Source of the DNA: Acrasis kona
Lineage: Eukaryota; Heterolobosea; Eutetramitea; Acrasida; Acrasidae
NCBI GenBank assembly: GCA_026419775.2
Contig: JAOPGA020001860.1
Span: forward strand, 1-20,129
Direction: 5' to 3'
DNA length: 20,129 nucleotides
Shown in pieces: positions 2,240 to 18,890 of the stretch (position 1 is its first letter; each line of letters starts with the position of its first letter). Position numbers and translations under genes: made by a program. The notes under the pieces were generated by a model. That model was not told where the DNA came from and did no database searches. It was given only the letters and a program-made list of their open reading frames with translations.

Positions 2240-2890
2240 TAACCCCACTACAAGTTAACAAGATAAGAATATGAAGTACTCTGCCTAAACCTACATCACC
2301 TAGCTGCCCATCAAAAAGCAACCGGCGACGCTGAGTGGAATTGAAATGACGAAGTGAAGCATGTAGAGAACTTTCATGCCCCGGACAACAACTCTACCAC
2401 ACATATGGAACAGAAGAGAATAAGACGTCGACTATTACCCCCGAAGGATGTGTGGCGTTCTAAGCGTTGACTTTTACAACATCTCCCACCAAACTGCGGA
2501 TTTCGAATCCTTGTACATCCTGTGACAGTATGACCTCCCCTTCCAGTTATATGTTATGTCGTAGGTGCCCGCAATGGACATCCATAACTGGTTTGATTGC
2601 TGATTTGCTCTCACAACACGAAGGATGTGAGTGGTTTGCCGTTACACCAATCCGGCAGATCAGGGCAAACCTATCAGGCACATTGCTGTGCATCGAACGG
2701 TCTTTACTTCTCATTGTCAACAGGGCACAGAGGGAAACGCTATTGTTAACCTAAAGCAAATGTACGTGGGTAAAAACCAAACTAAACCAAGCCAAACTGA
2801 ACCTAAAAGGTTTTTACCACACAGGAGAATATATCCTGTTGTACAATGCGATGAGTGTAACAAATGAAAGTGCGACAATATGAACTTTTA
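2240..2890. other. Unassigned region with short open frames
   Basis: No gene is recognised. Two overlapping plus-strand frames are open: 2467-2754, which includes a CxxC..CxxC-like spacing, and 2631-2867, a basic Lys/Gln/Pro-rich sequence. Each lacks an ATG at a convincing place and neither resembles a known family. A short segment near 2745-2775 recurs inverted near 3685-3705 (shared core ttttacccacgta). Confidence 0.3.
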
Positions 2891-2891
2891 G

Positions 2892-3503
2892 TTACGTTAC
2901 CTTGATTGTGCAACAGCTGACTTCGCGAAGATGTGCAGAAACACCGACCGACTGTACAACATGTATAGCATCAATCTTTGGCAGTGAGTAACCTGGTTCA
3001 ATGTCTTTACGCACAACCTTCTTCGCCAATCCGGCAGAGTAAGGTTCAAATGTGTGTTTCGTAAGGTATCTGAGAAAGTTTGTCAAGTCAAGATAAAGTG
3101 GGTTACTTACCTTCTTTATAGGGTGTACTTGTCTGTTGTGGCCTCAAATAGCATACGGCATGGTTCTCAACGGCAGAGTATGGATGCTTCTTGCATTTTA
3201 GGATGTCTCCTGATGTCTTTGTTTTGGATTTTGTTTTATTCAATTTTTTTCCTTTGTCGGTTTTTATACTTGCCGTTACAAAAATAATTAGTATGTTGGT
3301 TGACCACCACCTACACAATCATGTTGAAGTGAGATATTCAGATTTACAATGCGTGTACAACCATTCGGAAGACTTGTACCTTTTTGAATCAAGACCTTAT
3401 CACCTTTATTGATGAAAATATCATAAAAATACATTTTATTCATAATNATGTTGACCGAATGCGACATTTTTAGACGTCGCACATTATCAGCCACGGTATT
3501 CAA
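2892..3503 (-). CDS. Candidate multi-exon gene, unrecognised
   Basis: Three coding-like minus-strand blocks follow one another: 3503-3288 (..FYDIFINKGDKVLIQKGTSL..), 3318-3114 (Lys-rich, ..YSAVENHAVCYLRPQ..) and 3069-2892. A donor GTAAGT at 3110-3105 and acceptor CTCAG ending at 3070 define a 41-nt candidate intron. Splicing it keeps a frame open for about 58 more codons to a TAA near 2897. The alternative unspliced frame of the last block (..KDIEPGYSLPKIDAIHVVQ..) looks at least as protein-like, so the join is uncertain. The first two blocks cannot be joined in phase with the visible sites. An N at 3447 falls in the first block. Function unknown; could be a relic. Confidence 0.3.
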
Positions 3504-4150
3504 ATTATTAATCGATTTAGAGAGATGTTGTGTTGGAATTAAAAAAAGATGTCATAATATGAGAAAATGCTCAAGTTTATTGTGAAAAAGAATGCGGAAT
3601 ACAATAATAGTACTTTATGCGGAACTAGTTGTGGACAGTTCGTGTTTCCAGCTAATGCTACATTTCTGTGAAAGTCAATAAACATTTTTTACCCACGTAA
3701 ATGTTTCGCTTCGGCCTGTTGCGGTTTTTTCATTTCCATTGAATGATATCTGCACAATTAAATTAATTCTCTTTCCTGCCTTGCCACGTTATTAAGGCCG
3801 ATGAATTATCATCGCAAAATGTAAAAGGATGTAGCCGTCAACTTGAAGTCGAAAATGTGCCGCCATCCTTGTATTGCATCCTTGATGATTAGGTTGCTCA
3901 TTGATGTCAATAAATAATGAACAAAAGCATTAAGTATCATTAATAAGAATCACGTGATTTAATTGTCAAATGTTAAAACTGTCATCCTGACTGTGCCGTC
4001 GTCGGAGGTAGATATTAACACTTTATTATTGTATACGAAGAGGTGACTTATCAAACCAGTATGTCTATCCAACTGACCTACACACTCTCCGACCACAGTT
4101 TCATGGTTTTGCGCTCATTTAATAACACACTTTCGCTGGACTTAATCAAC
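3504..4150. other. AT-rich intergenic region, nothing recognised
   Basis: No open frame of note and no known motif apart from a perfect 12-bp palindrome with a CACGTG core at 3948-3959. A segment near 3785-3800 (cacgttattaagg) resembles one near 11105-11118. Confidence 0.4.
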
Positions 4151-4285
4151 AGACGAACACGATACGGTATGGGGACGACTTGTAATTGTGCTGATCCAAT
4201 CCCAAAACTGTTGATTGTCAAAGTTTTTTCCTTGATTGAAAACTTCATGTTGTCACGCCTATTCGTAACATTAGAAAAGTAATCC
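4150..4285 (-). repeat. Family copy B (short fragment)
   Basis: This segment repeats the block coding (minus strand) FSIKEKTLTINSFGIGSAQLQ, nearly identical to 18170-18235 and to 60-125. It ends within a few bases of the left end of the inverted-repeat element. The minus frame 4311-4078 runs through the whole fragment and into unrelated sequence on both sides. Confidence 0.6.
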
Positions 4286-4300
4286 GGATTTGGCGGTTCC

Positions 4301-4420
4301 TCACTTGACAATTAAAATTCTCACTTGACAATTAAAATCCTCACTTGACAATTAAAATCCTCACTTGACAATTAAAATTCTCACTTGACAATTAGAATCC
4401 TCACTTGACAATTAATATCC
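4301..4420 (+). repeat. Six 20-bp tandem units, left end of element
   Basis: Exact 20-bp period with unit cctcacttgacaattaaaat. Units differ by one or two bases near the 3' part (attaaaattc, attagaatcc, attaatatcc). Confidence 0.9.
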
Positions 4421-4538
4421 TCACCTAGATTACAATAAAGATGACGTTGGAGGGAAGGAGAGATGTTTTTATCGCTGTTGCAACAGACAAACAAGACAAC
4501 ACTCTAAATAACAATACTTGTTTACTACAATATAAACT

Positions 4539-5343
4539 TTATTCATCAAGAACCCTAAATAAAAAGTCTTCAAACGTCTCGTTCACATTTATCTCAACGT
4601 CTTGTCGATTTTTCTTGTTTGGCGGTTCAATGTCCTCCTCTGGTTGAAGCTGGCCATCTATCGCATCATCTGCCTCATCATCTTCGAAATATCCATCATA
4701 ATAACCCATCTCTTCATACTCGTGATCTTGAAGCACGTCCTCTGAAGGAACGTCTGGTTGAGGTTCAGGGTCATATTTCTCCTGGGCAAGCCTAACCAGG
4801 TCTAGAAGAGACTCCTTAAATGACACAGTGACACATTTTGGTTGCCAGCCCTTTGTCTCCTTCTCCCGACAAGCGTAAACCAGTTGTCATGGAAACATTC
4901 TTTGGTTTCCTCTTTAGATCCTTCATGTTGACAAGAAATGTATCCAGACCATCAAAAAGCTTAACAACGGCTGCTTTTGAAGGCTCCTCGACAACATTTC
5001 GATTACCATCCTCAAATTGAAGAACTAACGTGGGATCATTCAAGTTGGTTATAACCTTTTGACTGTCATCAGCATACGTGAACCGGAAAGAGAATACATT
5101 TGAAACAACAGTTGTACCGTTCTGAATAGCTACTATGGAATCTTCATTTGCTCTATCATGTACCTTCCTCTTCCTACCACGCTTCTTGTGTACCCGTGCA
5201 CTTGTGAGAATTAACTCATTTTGGGGTCCAACAGGTTGGAAGTGGTCCTCTGAATCCACAAGATTGTTTTGTGTCTGCGGAAGTGGACGTTGACCAAGTA
5301 CATATTTATACCTGCACTGTGCGAGATGTGTGAATACAAACCG
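4539..5343 (-). pseudogene. Element-borne gene, two frames (possible frameshift)
   Basis: Frame 1 is open from 5343 to 4816 (175 codons, no ATG; starts right at the inner inverted repeat). It reads CRYKYVLGQRPLPQ, a basic patch KKRGRKRK that could be a nuclear signal or AT-hook-like, then a globular-looking stretch with FSFRFTYADDSQKV. Frame 2 is open from 4886 to 4539 (115 codons): QLVYACREKETKGWQPKC, then a very acidic Asp/Glu-rich middle and a C-terminus ..ETFEDFLFRVLDE. The frames overlap at 4886-4816 and the protein-like signal passes from one to the other. This suggests one gene of about 280 codons broken by a frameshift, an unrecognised intron or a sequencing error. The stop codon is embedded in AATAAA. 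I do not recognise the family. Its place between the inverted ends suggests it is the element's own or captured gene. Confidence 0.5.
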
Positions 5344-5410
5344 TTAAAAACGTCTCTCCTTCCCACCAACATTCCTTATTGTCATCTTTATTGTAATCTA
5401 CGTGAGGATG

Positions 5411-5486
5411 TTAATTGTCAAGTGAGGATTCTAATTGTCAAGTGAGGATTTTTATTGTCAAGTGAGGATTTAATTGTCAAGTGAGG
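5411..5486 (-). repeat. Four inverted 20-bp tandem units, right end of element
   Basis: Reverse complements of the left-end unit, with periods 20, 20 and 19. They lie outside the inner inverted repeat, mirroring the left end. Confidence 0.9.
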
Positions 5487-5489
5487 AGC

Positions 5490-5880
5490 ACCCTATTCGC
5501 AAAGTAATCTAGATCTGTTGCTAATTATTACAATGAACCTTATCCCATTCCAGAGAGAATGTACACATTCCCACCGAATATTCACGCTAGAATTTTAAAA
5601 GGCAGAAAAACATCCAGAAGATAGTACAGCAAGAACAAATAAAACTTCCACAACGGAATATCAAAACTTTATAAATTTTCAATTATATCCCTCGCATCGA
5701 AGACAAACAAGAAAATTATTACGAAAAAGAGTACTGAGACTAAATATACGGTTTTAATGTCAAGAGGTGACTGAAAAGCACGAAATATCCAAAAACACAG
5801 AACAGATACATTCAATGATAAGAAAATTTGTTTGTTTTATTATAACACGTAGCAACATCTACTCTCTAATGGCCAGAAGA
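5490..5880. other. AT-rich region, nothing recognised
   Basis: No frame, repeat or motif stands out after the short flank match next to the element at 5492-5509. Confidence 0.4.
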
Positions 5881-11569: not shown

Positions 11570-13037
11570 GATTCAATCCACTCCTCTTGCGATGATGCAT
11601 CGCATAATGTTCTGCTTGTACTTGTCCATTTAAACGTTCAAAGTAACTTGTAAAGAATCTCACGAGATGTGCTGTTGTGTTCTCATTCAAACTATCGTTA
11701 CATTAGAAAGAATGCAAAATGTCTACTTACAACACTGTATTGTTCTGGTCATCATGTGCATTCTCTTAAGGACTCTCTGCTTACATACGATGAGATAATT
11801 TAACGATCTTTGCAACGAAAATGTTCTGGATCAGAGGTGGCACGGCGATAATGGAATCTAAACGGGATAAGTGAATATTATTGTGTGAAAGTTGTTATCA
11901 TACTAAAAACGTTATAATACCATCATCGATATGTTGACTTACACAAGCATTTAACACTTGTAGTCCAGTATCGGCTGCTTGATTGATTCAATCATTTTGT
12001 CCTGATGAACAATTTCACTTCCATAATTTCTCAAAAATGTTGATGGTCAAAGTTTGTTTCTTCATGATTTGATGTATGTGTGATCTCAAAGTTTTCTCCT
12101 TGATCGAAAGTTGTAAGATGTTTCGATTGTTATCAACAAGACTATTCGTTACATTAGAAAAAGTAATAATAAGGTACTTACACCATATGGGTGATGAGAA
12201 CACTCTTAGGTTATTCTTTCCTTGTCAAATGTCTATTCTTTACAGCCCAGTGGATCTCAGACAAACTTCGTTGTTCCTTCATGGGATTGGTTTTTGTTAA
12301 AATGTATTTGTTAATGTCTATGGAATACAATGCTGTAGTCGGTTTTGTTGGTGAAATGATAATTTCGGGGTCAATGGGTTTGGTTCTTGTAATCTTGGCT
12401 TATGTTTACAAAAAAACCTTCCGTAGTGTACATGATGTTGAAAAATGCAGGACAGTTCGACACGCTCCAACGTAGAATGTTTGTGGATGGAATCATACGA
12501 TAAGGTTTGATGTAAATGTATGTCCTCGTTGAAAATTGTGATGGTTGTGTATGTGTTGAAAATGTCATCCATCTTGCCAGACTACGCACCATTAGTGAAA
12601 TGAAAATGCATTTATTTACGTTTGAGTTGTAATGTGCAAAGGCTAGTGCACATACTCAGTTGGCGGCGCACATTGGATTAATAGGAGAAAATACTCTGGA
12701 GGTTGGTGACGAAATGGGATTGGTGGGAACCAGAATGTCTCTGGCCGACCATGTTGAATTAATCTTTTGTAGTCATGCGGAGTTTGATGTTGATCTTATT
12801 ACAAGTGACTATATGTGTAATGTCTTTTAATGCTTTCTGGAAATGTTGTGGCGGGTGGTGTGTTTGCTGCTCTTGCGATTATTGCAGAAGGTGGGAGTGT
12901 AATGCGATTAATGTATCCGCTTGTGATGATGTACGTTGGTATGCTCAGATTTGAAATGTTGTGCGGCGTGGTGATGTCGGCGTTTCATTTGTTGTAATGT
13001 GTTGTTCGAAAGCATTTGATGAGTACTTGTGCGATAC
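11570..13037 (-). pseudogene. Family copy D (longest, exon-intron-like)
   Basis: On the minus strand, 5' to 3': HHHAAQHFKSEHTN (about 13000-12940), TIFNEDIHLHQTLSYDSIHK and STLERVELSCIFQ (about 12550-12430), WCKYLIITFSNVTNSLVDNN with LQLSIKEKTL (about 12190-12080), and the tail ENTTAHLVRFFTSYFERLNG (about 11690-11620). GTAAGT donor-like sites lie near 12180, 11942 and 11728. Each is followed after 39-40 nt by a TAG acceptor with a branch-like taat/ataac. Not all joins are in phase and some blocks carry frame-disrupting indels compared with copies A and E. Homology to other copies stops abruptly at about 13037, where unrelated sequence begins. Confidence 0.5.
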
Positions 13038-13686: not shown

Positions 13687-14841
13687 ATGTGCAGCACAAG
13701 CAACTTAAACACCGATCATGATAATCTAGGTGATAATATCAGGGGATATAAAAAGACACGTGAAGACATAAATCTAGATGTTGTGGGGGAAGATATTCTT
13801 TTTTGCATTGCAACATTTCTTGACGTCAAAGAGTGGATTGCGTTTTTTAAAACATGTTCCTCAGTCTACAAGATAAAACAAAACAATCACGTGCACATCA
13901 ATAAGATGTATAAAGCCTCTCGCTATAGCACTGAAGCAGAATTTGCTAATTTTAGGGGATTGCATACATTAGATATATCCAGAATCAGTTCAAGAACAGT
14001 AACAGATTCTGCTTTTTCATTTTTAGAAGGTATTTATGCATTGTACATGTCATGTTATCAAATCACGGATGCGGCATTTATACATCTAAAAGGCATTCAT
14101 ACATTGGACATGTCGTCCTGCCACAACATAACGGATGCGGCATTCAAACATCTAAAAGGCATTCATACATTGGACATGTCATCCTGCCACAAAATAACGG
14201 ATGCGGCATTTATACATCTGAAAGGTGTTCATACATTGTACATGTTATCCTGTTATCAAATAACGGATGCAGCATTCATATATCTGAAAGGTATTCATAC
14301 ATTAAACATATTAGGTTGCGATAGAATCACAGCTGCGGCATTTATACATCTAAAAGGTATTCATACATTGAACATATCATACTGCCACAAAATAACGGAT
14401 GCGGCATTTATACATCTAAAAGGCATTCATACATTGAACATATTAGGTTGCTTTCGAATCACGGATGCAGCATTCAAACATCTAAAAGGCATTCATACAT
14501 TGAGCATGTCACAGAGTGCTCGAATCACGGATGCGGCATTTATACATCTAAAAGGCATTCATACATTGGACATGTCATCCTGCCACAACATAACGGATGC
14601 AGCATTCAAACATCTAAAAGGCATTCATACATTGAACATGTCACATAGTGATCGAATCACGGATGCGGCATTTATACATCTAAAAGGCATTCATACATTG
14701 GACATGTCATCCTGCCACAAAATAACGGATGCGGCATTTATACATCTGAAAGGCATTCATACATTGAACATATCATACTGCGACCAAATAACCGATGCAG
14801 TATTTGTACATCTAAAAGGTGTCACCATTTACTTTAAATAA
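13687..14841 (+). CDS. F-box and leucine-rich-repeat protein
   Basis: 384 aa, intronless. Residues 31-65 (VVGEDILFCIATFLDVKEWI.. TCSSVYKI) have the pattern of an F-box, the Skp1-binding domain of SCF ubiquitin ligases. Residues about 92-378 are 13 units of a 22-residue leucine-rich repeat, consensus IHTLDMSSCHKITDAAFIHL plus KG; the first two are diverged and the last is followed only by VTIYFK. The repeat would form the substrate-binding solenoid. The DNA repeats at 66 bp are almost identical, which points to recent amplification or gene conversion. F-box/LRR proteins with similar short repeats occur in protists and, to my knowledge, in giant viruses of amoebae. The predicted role, choosing targets for ubiquitylation, is inferred from domain order. 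Start: the first ATG after stops in frame. An AATAAA overlaps the stop codon. Confidence 0.85.
   Translation: MCSTSNLNTDHDNLGDNIRGYKKTREDINLDVVGEDILFCIATFLDVKEWIAFFKTCSSVYKIKQNNHVHINKMYKASRYSTEAEFANFRGLHTLDISRISSRTVTDSAFSFLEGIYALYMSCYQITDAAFIHLKGIHTLDMSSCHNITDAAFKHLKGIHTLDMSSCHKITDAAFIHLKGVHTLYMLSCYQITDAAFIYLKGIHTLNILGCDRITAAAFIHLKGIHTLNISYCHKITDAAFIHLKGIHTLNILGCFRITDAAFKHLKGIHTLSMSQSARITDAAFIHLKGIHTLDMSSCHNITDAAFKHLKGIHTLNMSHSDRITDAAFIHLKGIHTLDMSSCHKITDAAFIHLKGIHTLNISYCDQITDAVFVHLKGVTIYFK
14104..14820 (+). repeat. 66-bp coding tandem repeats
   Basis: Eleven near-identical 66-bp units encode the LRR array. Units with the same variant residues (SSCHN..K, SSCHK..I, ..DR..) recur in non-adjacent positions, as expected from unequal exchange of multi-unit blocks. 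Confidence 0.9.
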
Positions 14842-17983: not shown

Positions 17984-18890
17984 TTACACCAATGAGTCTA
18001 AAGTATAATTCAATCCACACTCCTCTTGCGGTATCATTAAAATGTTGCATCCATAATGTTCTTCTGCTTGTACTCTTCCGTTCAAACGTTCAAAGTATCT
18101 TGTAACAAATCTCTCGAGGTGTGCTGTCGTTCCTTCGTGATGACAAAATGATTTAAATGTACGGGACGACTTGTAATTGTGCTGATCCAATCCCAAAACT
18201 GTTGATGGTCAAAGTTTTCTCCTTGATTGAAAGTTGTAATATGGTTGGATTGATTGTTATCATTTTCATGTTGTCACAACAAAGTGATGGGTATGTATTG
18301 AAAATGTCATCCATCTTGCTAGACTCTACCATTAGTGAATTAAAAATGCATTTACTTACGTTTGAGATCTAATGTGCAAAGGCTACTGCTCATACTCAGT
18401 TGGCGGCGACATTGGATTAATTGGAGAAAATACTCTTGGAGGTTGGTGACGAAATAGGATTAATGGGACGACCATGTCGGATTAATCTTTTGTAGCCGTG
18501 CGGAGTTTGATGTTGATCTTGTTACAAGTGACTGTGTGCGTAATAGCTTTTAATGTGTTTGTTGGTCTTGTGATTGTTTGTTGAAGATCGTGAGGGAAAG
18601 TGTAATGCGATTAATGATAATGTATGTTTGATCTGATGTAAGGGTGATTTACATGTTGGTATGCTCAGATTTGAAATGTTGTGCGGCATGGTGATGTCTC
18701 GTTTGTAATGTGTTGTTGTTCAAAAGTATTTGATGAGTACTTGTTGGATTGATCATATGTTGGTGTGTCCGCTGCTGTCTGGTAAGAAGGACTCTGGATC
18801 TAGTTTTGATGTCGGGGATCCGTTTGTCGTTATTGTTTTCATCCAATGGACAGAGCATGCCCGGTCGAAGCTTTGAGATCAGACTATAAA
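17984..18890 (-). pseudogene. Family copy E
   Basis: On the minus strand: STHQILLNNNTLQTRHHHAA then QHFKSEHTN (about 18745-18655), a GTAAGT donor-like site at 18359 with GGTAG about 34 nt on, DDIFNTYPSLCCDN (about 18315-18275), LQLSIKEKTLTINSFGIGSA (about 18235-18180), and a tail open for 70 codons (18196-17984) with HHEGTTAHLERFVTRYFERL. The last two blocks are in different frames here, whereas copy A1 has them in one frame, so a small indel separates them. The unit ends just before the GH31 relic on the same strand and begins just before the divergent desaturase gene. Confidence 0.5.

Follow-up and report, generated by a model that had tools for sequence, protein, structure and literature searches.

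An internally deleted, probably Mutator-like transposon with foldback-like ends in the genome of Acrasis kona

What kind of element carries inverted ends built of tandem 20-bp units around a broken gene, and where does that gene come from? The question is raised by a contig of the fruiting amoeba Acrasis kona (Heterolobosea), which was analysed over its whole length of 20,129 bases (contig C975, hereafter the window). From the letters alone, the original prediction had placed a composite foldback-like mobile element with repeated sub-terminal units at 4258-5535, enclosing a gene with no recognisable transposase, which might be captured cargo or a new type of element protein. The window was compared with an assembly of 37.35 Mb in 1,021 contigs, in which every match count is a minimum and also counts the query's own locus. 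For the published A. kona genome, a 454 and Illumina assembly, an estimated size of 44.02 Mb and a repeat content of 16.8% are given (PMC11589745), so copies may be missing from the smaller assembly searched here. Elsewhere in the window, a leucine-rich-repeat gene with ~11.5 tandem 66-bp units lies at 13687-14841, and 15465-16241 matches the Pfam family Amidoligase_2, yet is CobT in the public record.

With a probability of about 0.92, the element could be described as a non-autonomous, internally deleted cut-and-paste transposon that has foldback-like ends and is Mutator-like (MULE) in the wide sense. The comparisons between copies show an insertion with a 9-bp duplication, an empty site, common ends, a full-length relative, and a deleted sister that has moved. 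The element proper occupies 4285-5500 (1,216 bp), with borders set by the end motifs compared between copies, and is bracketed by the exact 9-bp direct repeat AAAGTAATC at 4276-4284 and 5501-5509. An element was thus rightly placed here, but its borders, as given by the 9-bp duplication, lie slightly inside those predicted. Its parts are as follows.

4276-4284, no strand: left target-site duplication of 9 bp, the same as 5501-5509 and present as a single copy at the empty site on C129.
4285-5500, no strand: whole element of 1,216 bp, read as non-autonomous and Mutator-like from the 9-bp duplication, the empty site, and end motifs common to other copies.
4285-4299, plus strand: left outer end motif of the CGG...GGTT type, outside the tandem array; a related motif stands at one end of C607, C64, C405, C86, C16, and C209.
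4300-4419, plus strand: left array of 6 units of 20 bp (repeat search and unit scan).
4420-4474, plus strand: incomplete unit together with the left-hand inner inverted repeat (inverted-repeat search and copy comparison).
4539-4826, minus strand: second frame, the acidic C-terminal end of the transposase remnant; in the C806 and C480 frames the same residues directly continue the first part.
4816-5259, minus strand: first frame, transposase remnant from the region behind CxC...CCKH, with a basic patch (identity to C480, C607, C806, and C22).
4854-4855, minus strand: point at which 23 bp present in the sister copy are missing, so that the frame is split (alignment to C22).
5250-5301, minus strand: junction zone of the ~1.9-kb internal deletion (alignment to the C607 element).
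5303-5310, minus strand: motif TATAAATA, a candidate TATA box retained from the region 5' of the gene; a similar motif, TATAAACATG, lies upstream of the first ATG in C607.
5342-5401, minus strand: inner inverted repeat of the right end (inverted-repeat search and copy comparison).
5402-5487, minus strand: right array of 4 units, one of them 19 bp long, and one partial unit (repeat search, C607 alignment, and unit scan).
5488-5500, minus strand: right outer end motif, reading GCGAATAGGG inward and differing from the left one; the same or a related motif is found in C22, C607, C64, C405, C86, C16, C403, and C209.
5501-5509, no strand: right target-site duplication of 9 bp, an exact match to the left copy.

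The predicted architecture of the ends was borne out by the unit scan, which gave ten 20-bp units, six forward at 4300-4419 and four reversed at 5407-5485, each with 0-2 mismatches to CTCACTTGACAATTAAAATC. No further site was found in the window when up to 4 mismatches were tolerated, and in 20 dinucleotide shuffles the scan gave 0 hits in 18 and a single hit in the other two. The longest inverted arms are 91 nt with 96% identity (4355-4445 and 5381-5471), and the inner inverted repeat, likewise predicted, measures 29 nt with 90% identity (4446-4474 and 5342-5370).

The comparison that the original prediction had named as its possible refutation came out in favor of a mobile element. On contig C129 the two flanks are joined in the absence of the element, with one copy of the 9-bp sequence and with the surrounding repeat as in the window. 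The left flank, the single 9-bp copy, and the right flank are contiguous there and identical to the window in 436 of 454 columns; six of the 18 differences fall within the first 431 columns and 12 in a divergent tail. This empty site shows the insertion of an element rather than a local inverted duplication. The insertion lies within a dispersed repeat: counting the window itself, at least 50 match pieces to the left flank occur in the genome. The same repeat family recurs in the window at 1-700, 4130-4284, 12030-12190, and 18060-18430. Contig C1010 matches the left flank precisely as far as the insertion point, where it lacks the element and goes on as the usual dispersed repeat, but the right flank shared by C129 and the window is different there. 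Because the sequence behind the insertion point differs, C1010 does not provide a second clean empty site, and from these right flanks the preinsertion site itself looks rearranged.

The proposed search for other genomic copies returned at least 25 DNA matches for the left array, two of which are the window's own ends. The window frame at 4816-5259 gave at least 39 protein match pieces, itself included, and a frame of C248 with the catalytic region gave at least 54. A full-length copy carrying the window's own unit sequence was not found in the 37.35-Mb assembly. Both borders could be set in eight two-ended copies (window, C607, C209, C64, C403, C405, C86, and C16), a set that leaves out C61, with borders lacking an exact-string match, as well as C448, C685, C883, and C614. 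Exact 9-bp duplications, within the MULE range of 8-11 bp, flank five of the eight: the window element, C607 (3,110 bp), C209 (1,352 bp), C64 (1,299 bp), and the miniature C403 (103 bp; L017:1473-1575), in which only one array remnant and the inner motif are left. In the remaining three, C405, C86, and C16, the 9-mers on the two sides are unlike. The left 9-mer of C405 is the right one of C86 and vice versa; similarly, the right 9-mer of C16, ATTAAAATT, precedes the same type of element on C760, and the left one, ATAATCTTT, follows a truncated element on C760. These swaps would be explained by ectopic exchange between copies or by misjoined contigs, and misjoins are likely because the assembly is built from short reads. 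At the target ATTAAAATT, the array of a window-type element appears to have received a family member whose two sides lie on different contigs, C760 and C16. The end of C16 and the start of C22 share 668 of 668 bases and are probably one locus.

The origin of the gene became apparent from the longer copies. The window holds two overlapping minus-strand frames, as predicted, at 4816-5259 (147 codons) and 4539-4826 (95 codons), although together they amount to 242 codons instead of about 290. The first frame is 72% identical to frames of C480 and C607, 90% to that of C806, and 99% to C22 over residues 66-135. Almost all of it can be aligned with the C-terminal portion of the frames in C480 and C607 (72%) and in C883 (41%), and the matches in C480 and C607 fall within open frames of 519 codons. 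In C607 a stop-to-stop frame of 383 codons precedes the 519-codon frame in the same element, and the two overlap in different reading frames, an arrangement expected from a single short intron; a full transposase of ~850 codons can be estimated from the two. Along the transposase frames a Cys-rich segment comes first, followed by a region with GSDxWxKSN and (I/V)DND, then CKFH, YNTNNYTE, and CxC...CCKH, the last of which is invariant in all three aligned frames; we read these family motifs as putative DDE and SWIM motifs. The 242 window codons correspond to the part after CCKH, roughly the last quarter to third of the protein at its estimated length. At the DNA level, positions 571-966 of the window element correspond to 548-943 of the C607 element and positions 1016-1203 to 2890-3077, with nothing between, so that ~1.9 kb is missing from the window element between positions 966 and 1016. 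The split of the window frame is a 23-bp deletion relative to the sister copy C22, which has a 4-bp deletion elsewhere, and sequencing error was rejected as the cause of the frame change.

Judged by these alignments, the window "gene" is a C-terminal remnant of the family's own Mutator-like transposase, and as debris of an internal deletion it is probably without function. The claim that no transposase is recognisable therefore falls, as the frames match the tail of a protein whose frames are long and open in C607 and C480, and with it fall the two suggested origins, captured cargo and a new type of element protein. In Pfam neither window frame matched a family above the cut-off (best BapA_N, E 0.18), and NCBIfam gave the catalytic frames sub-threshold names only, the best being a transposase-like family (E 0.0013; two of four members). 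A PDB sequence search had no meaningful match (best E 0.077). A protein search with a profile of three frames returned P0001, an A. kona fragment, and a single distant relative, P0002 (E 5.4e-17), and a search with P0002 found only P0002 itself. Structure prediction for the window frame with P0001 and for P0002 gave models of insufficient quality (mean pLDDT 48.2 and 36.6, respectively).

The deleted form has also been mobile. The C22 copy shares the internal deletion of the window element, with the same ~1.9-kb loss. Since C22 begins inside the element, the comparison spans element position 302 to the right end; it shows 893 identities in 926 columns, with 28 gap columns and five substitutions in the 898 ungapped columns. 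The gaps include 23 bp present only in C22 and 4 bp present only in the window. The right flank of C22 starts with ATATCATCA and is otherwise unlike that of the window, indicating a different insertion site. As the two copies share their deletion at different sites, the deleted form itself has moved, and as both are devoid of the catalytic part, the enzyme was presumably supplied in trans by another copy. C607 and C480 differ by only four mismatches and 22 gap columns in 2,602 columns (C480 without its 5' end), and this near identity suggests that the family was probably active recently.

The design of the ends is kept across much of the family while the unit sequence changes. Arrays with a period of 19-20 bp occur in 11 of 15 loci found by protein matches (C806, C347, C480, C607, C209, C672, C946, C883, C448, C685, and C614); there is none in the examined stretches of C399, C248, and C303, and C978 shows only an A-rich 21-bp repeat of 2.1 copies. 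The unit is CTCACTTGACAATTAAAATC in the window, approximately CTCACCCGGCAATTAAATTT in C607, and approximately CTCTCCCGGTAATTACAATT in C209, and more distant in C883 and C614, so that the 19-20 bp period persists while the unit differs between subfamilies. The two ends of C607 share an identical run of 119 bp in inverted orientation from position 13 inwards, whereas the outer 12 bases differ. Together with the 91-nt arms of the window element, this run represents the long terminal inverted repeats (TIRs) that are a MULE trait. In the copies compared, one outer end bears a CGG... motif and the opposite end ...ATTCGC, both outside the arrays, and the outer motifs of the two ends are unlike in all eight two-ended copies. 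The number of units is variable, being six and four within the window, three in C806, and four in C347. C806 and C347 have near-identical left flanks, an observation that implies changes in unit number in place. The family thus has composite TIRs of the foldback type, in which variable tandem units are combined with a distinct terminal motif. Relative to the gene, the CGG end is on the 3' side in the window, C607, C480, and the C405 group, and on the 5' side in C209 (L052:1209-2560), where the outer motifs are reversed relative to the gene, as if the interior had been flipped between the inverted arrays.

The place of the transposase relative to the MULEs was judged from profile searches. The Pfam family MULE (PF10551) is the top match in all eight scanned frames with the catalytic region (three plus five frames, which are related to each other), with E values from 9.1e-6 to 0.026, and the end of the profile is reached in several; all eight nevertheless stay below the Pfam cut-off of 27.6 bits (best 26.5), as do the best family members in a genome scan with MULE, C48 and C1011 (27.1 bits). 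The SWIM family gave a weak match in one of four scanned frames with CCKH (E 0.35). These scores leave some room for the view that the same cut-and-paste element with its 9-bp duplication is served by a transposase of a separate lineage between MULE and ZSWIM, which overlaps with the wide-sense MULE reading and which we regard as unlikely. It agrees with the C72 frame also matching ZSWIM1-3_RNaseH-like (E 0.0068), and with P0002 matching ZSWIM1/3 helical (E 9.4e-6) and SWIM (E 0.017) while MULE is not listed for it. No significant relation emerged from comparisons with other MULEs of the genome either: profile comparison (hhalign) with three over-cut-off MULE frames gave probabilities of 0.4% and 0.9%, and hmmsearch with four such frames gave at best E 0.072 (C921), barely better than the best shuffled control (E 0.24). 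In the genome as a whole, 10 of 21 MULE-domain matches exceed the Pfam cut-off, all in other genes, on C921, C495, C158, C135, C269, C432, C316, C99, and C1015. Against a separate lineage stand the uniform first rank of MULE among the catalytic frames and three features listed as MULE traits in the survey of PMC6446971, namely the 9-bp duplication, TIRs that are long and complex, and a SWIM-type motif. Zinc fingers listed for MULEs are of FLYWCH, SWIM, or C2H2 types.

The other explanations concern the interior and the very existence of the element. It is improbable that the fragment has been retained for a function, such as that of a repressor or accessory DNA-binding protein of the derivatives. 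The 3' part of the gene is indeed present in diverged derivative lineages (window and C22; C405, C86, C16, C64, and C61; C209; C448 and C685), and the frame is open in C209 (261 codons) and C685 (292 codons); however, it is broken in the window, C22, C806, C347, C448, and the C405 group, and the pattern is partly selected, the protein search having started from this very fragment. Still less credit can be given to a host gene captured in a foldback element in the manner of Pack-MULE cargo. The want of a Pfam family above the cut-off in both window frames would suit such cargo, but the first frame aligns with the C-terminal part of the C480, C607, and C883 frames, directly behind CxC...CCKH, and a host-derived interior was ruled out by the full-length copies, which show the element's own transposase tail. 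Practically no weight remains for a local inverted duplication of a minisatellite without any mobile element. Tandem arrays can form locally, and the three and four units of C806 and C347 in near-identical flanks accord with this, but the exact 9-bp duplication and the dispersed copies with different flanks do not, and the C129 empty site refutes it. Collectively, the wide-sense MULE reading with foldback-like ends is preferred.

Elements of similar construction have been described in animals. Muta1 and other MULEs of Aedes aegypti resemble the Acrasis family in their 8-9 bp target duplications, a MULE-like transposase, and long TIRs composed of a short terminal motif and sub-terminal tandem repeats (PMC5225508). 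The same report gives nine copies of a 12-bp unit for Muta1 and nine of a 15-bp unit for Muta5, and Muta1, which its authors assign to the type 2 Foldback elements, likewise has many non-autonomous derivatives and a variable unit number (PMC5225508). The differences lie in the unit, which is 19-20 bp in Acrasis without the 3-4 bp linkers of Muta1, in the transposase, estimated at ~850 codons compared with 504 residues in Muta1, and in the putative zinc finger, CxC...CCKH standing behind the catalytic part in Acrasis, whereas most Muta families are described with an N-terminal FLYWCH and only Muta6 with a C-terminal SWIM (PMC5225508). The Tm1 Mutator/Foldback elements of root-knot nematodes are also alike in asymmetric outer motifs outside the inverted repeat, reported as 7 bp long with one beginning CGG, and in variable unit numbers (mostly 14-bp units), 9-bp duplications, and MITE-like derivatives; by its description, a MULE-like transposase in one class of copies is a further likeness, and the unit length, the unit sequence, and the animal host set Tm1 apart (PMC3169594). 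Among SWIM-bearing MULE groups, Curupira resembles the Acrasis family in its 9-bp duplications and its SWIM-bearing transposase, the Acrasis SWIM-type motif being putative, but is listed without TIRs (PMC6446971). Rehavkus shares 9-bp duplications, a minisatellite near one end, and a relation to MULEs; it differs by the PHD finger reported there and by a minisatellite at one end, compared with arrays in both TIRs in Acrasis (PMC6446971). No PHD family was among the Pfam matches of the scanned transposase frames.

A plausible course of transposition could be drawn from these features. The transposase of another family member would bind the tandem 20-bp units, which offer several sites per end; with units about two helical turns apart, several proteins might be lined up on one face of the DNA, which is conjecture. 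The bound transposase would then pair the two ends, cut at the outer motifs, and insert the element with a 9-bp stagger, while slippage or unequal exchange could shift the unit number in place. A more far-reaching picture, which we hold to be quite doubtful, is that of a MULE/ZSWIM-related lineage of Heterolobosea with unlike outer motifs, diverging units, and a conserved period of about two turns, in which transposase and array would co-evolve and derivatives encoding the C-terminal basic tail could regulate the full-length copies.

The family represents a genuine mobile element of an established kind, in a host that has received little study, and its mechanism is ordinary. In the literature searched, no earlier description of such elements was found for Acrasis kona, Heterolobosea, or Naegleria, although the supplementary repeat table of the A. 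kona genome paper may list MULEs. The hosts named in the 2019 survey are animals, fungi, amoeba, stramenopiles, parabasalids, and plants (PMC6446971), and the present family places Mutator/foldback-type transposons in Acrasis (Heterolobosea), outside these six groups. It also offers a natural series with related ends, from full-length copies through deletion derivatives to a 103-bp miniature, and the variation of the unit sequence across subfamilies at a constant period of 19-20 bp provides a good setting for addressing the role of the sub-terminal repeats.
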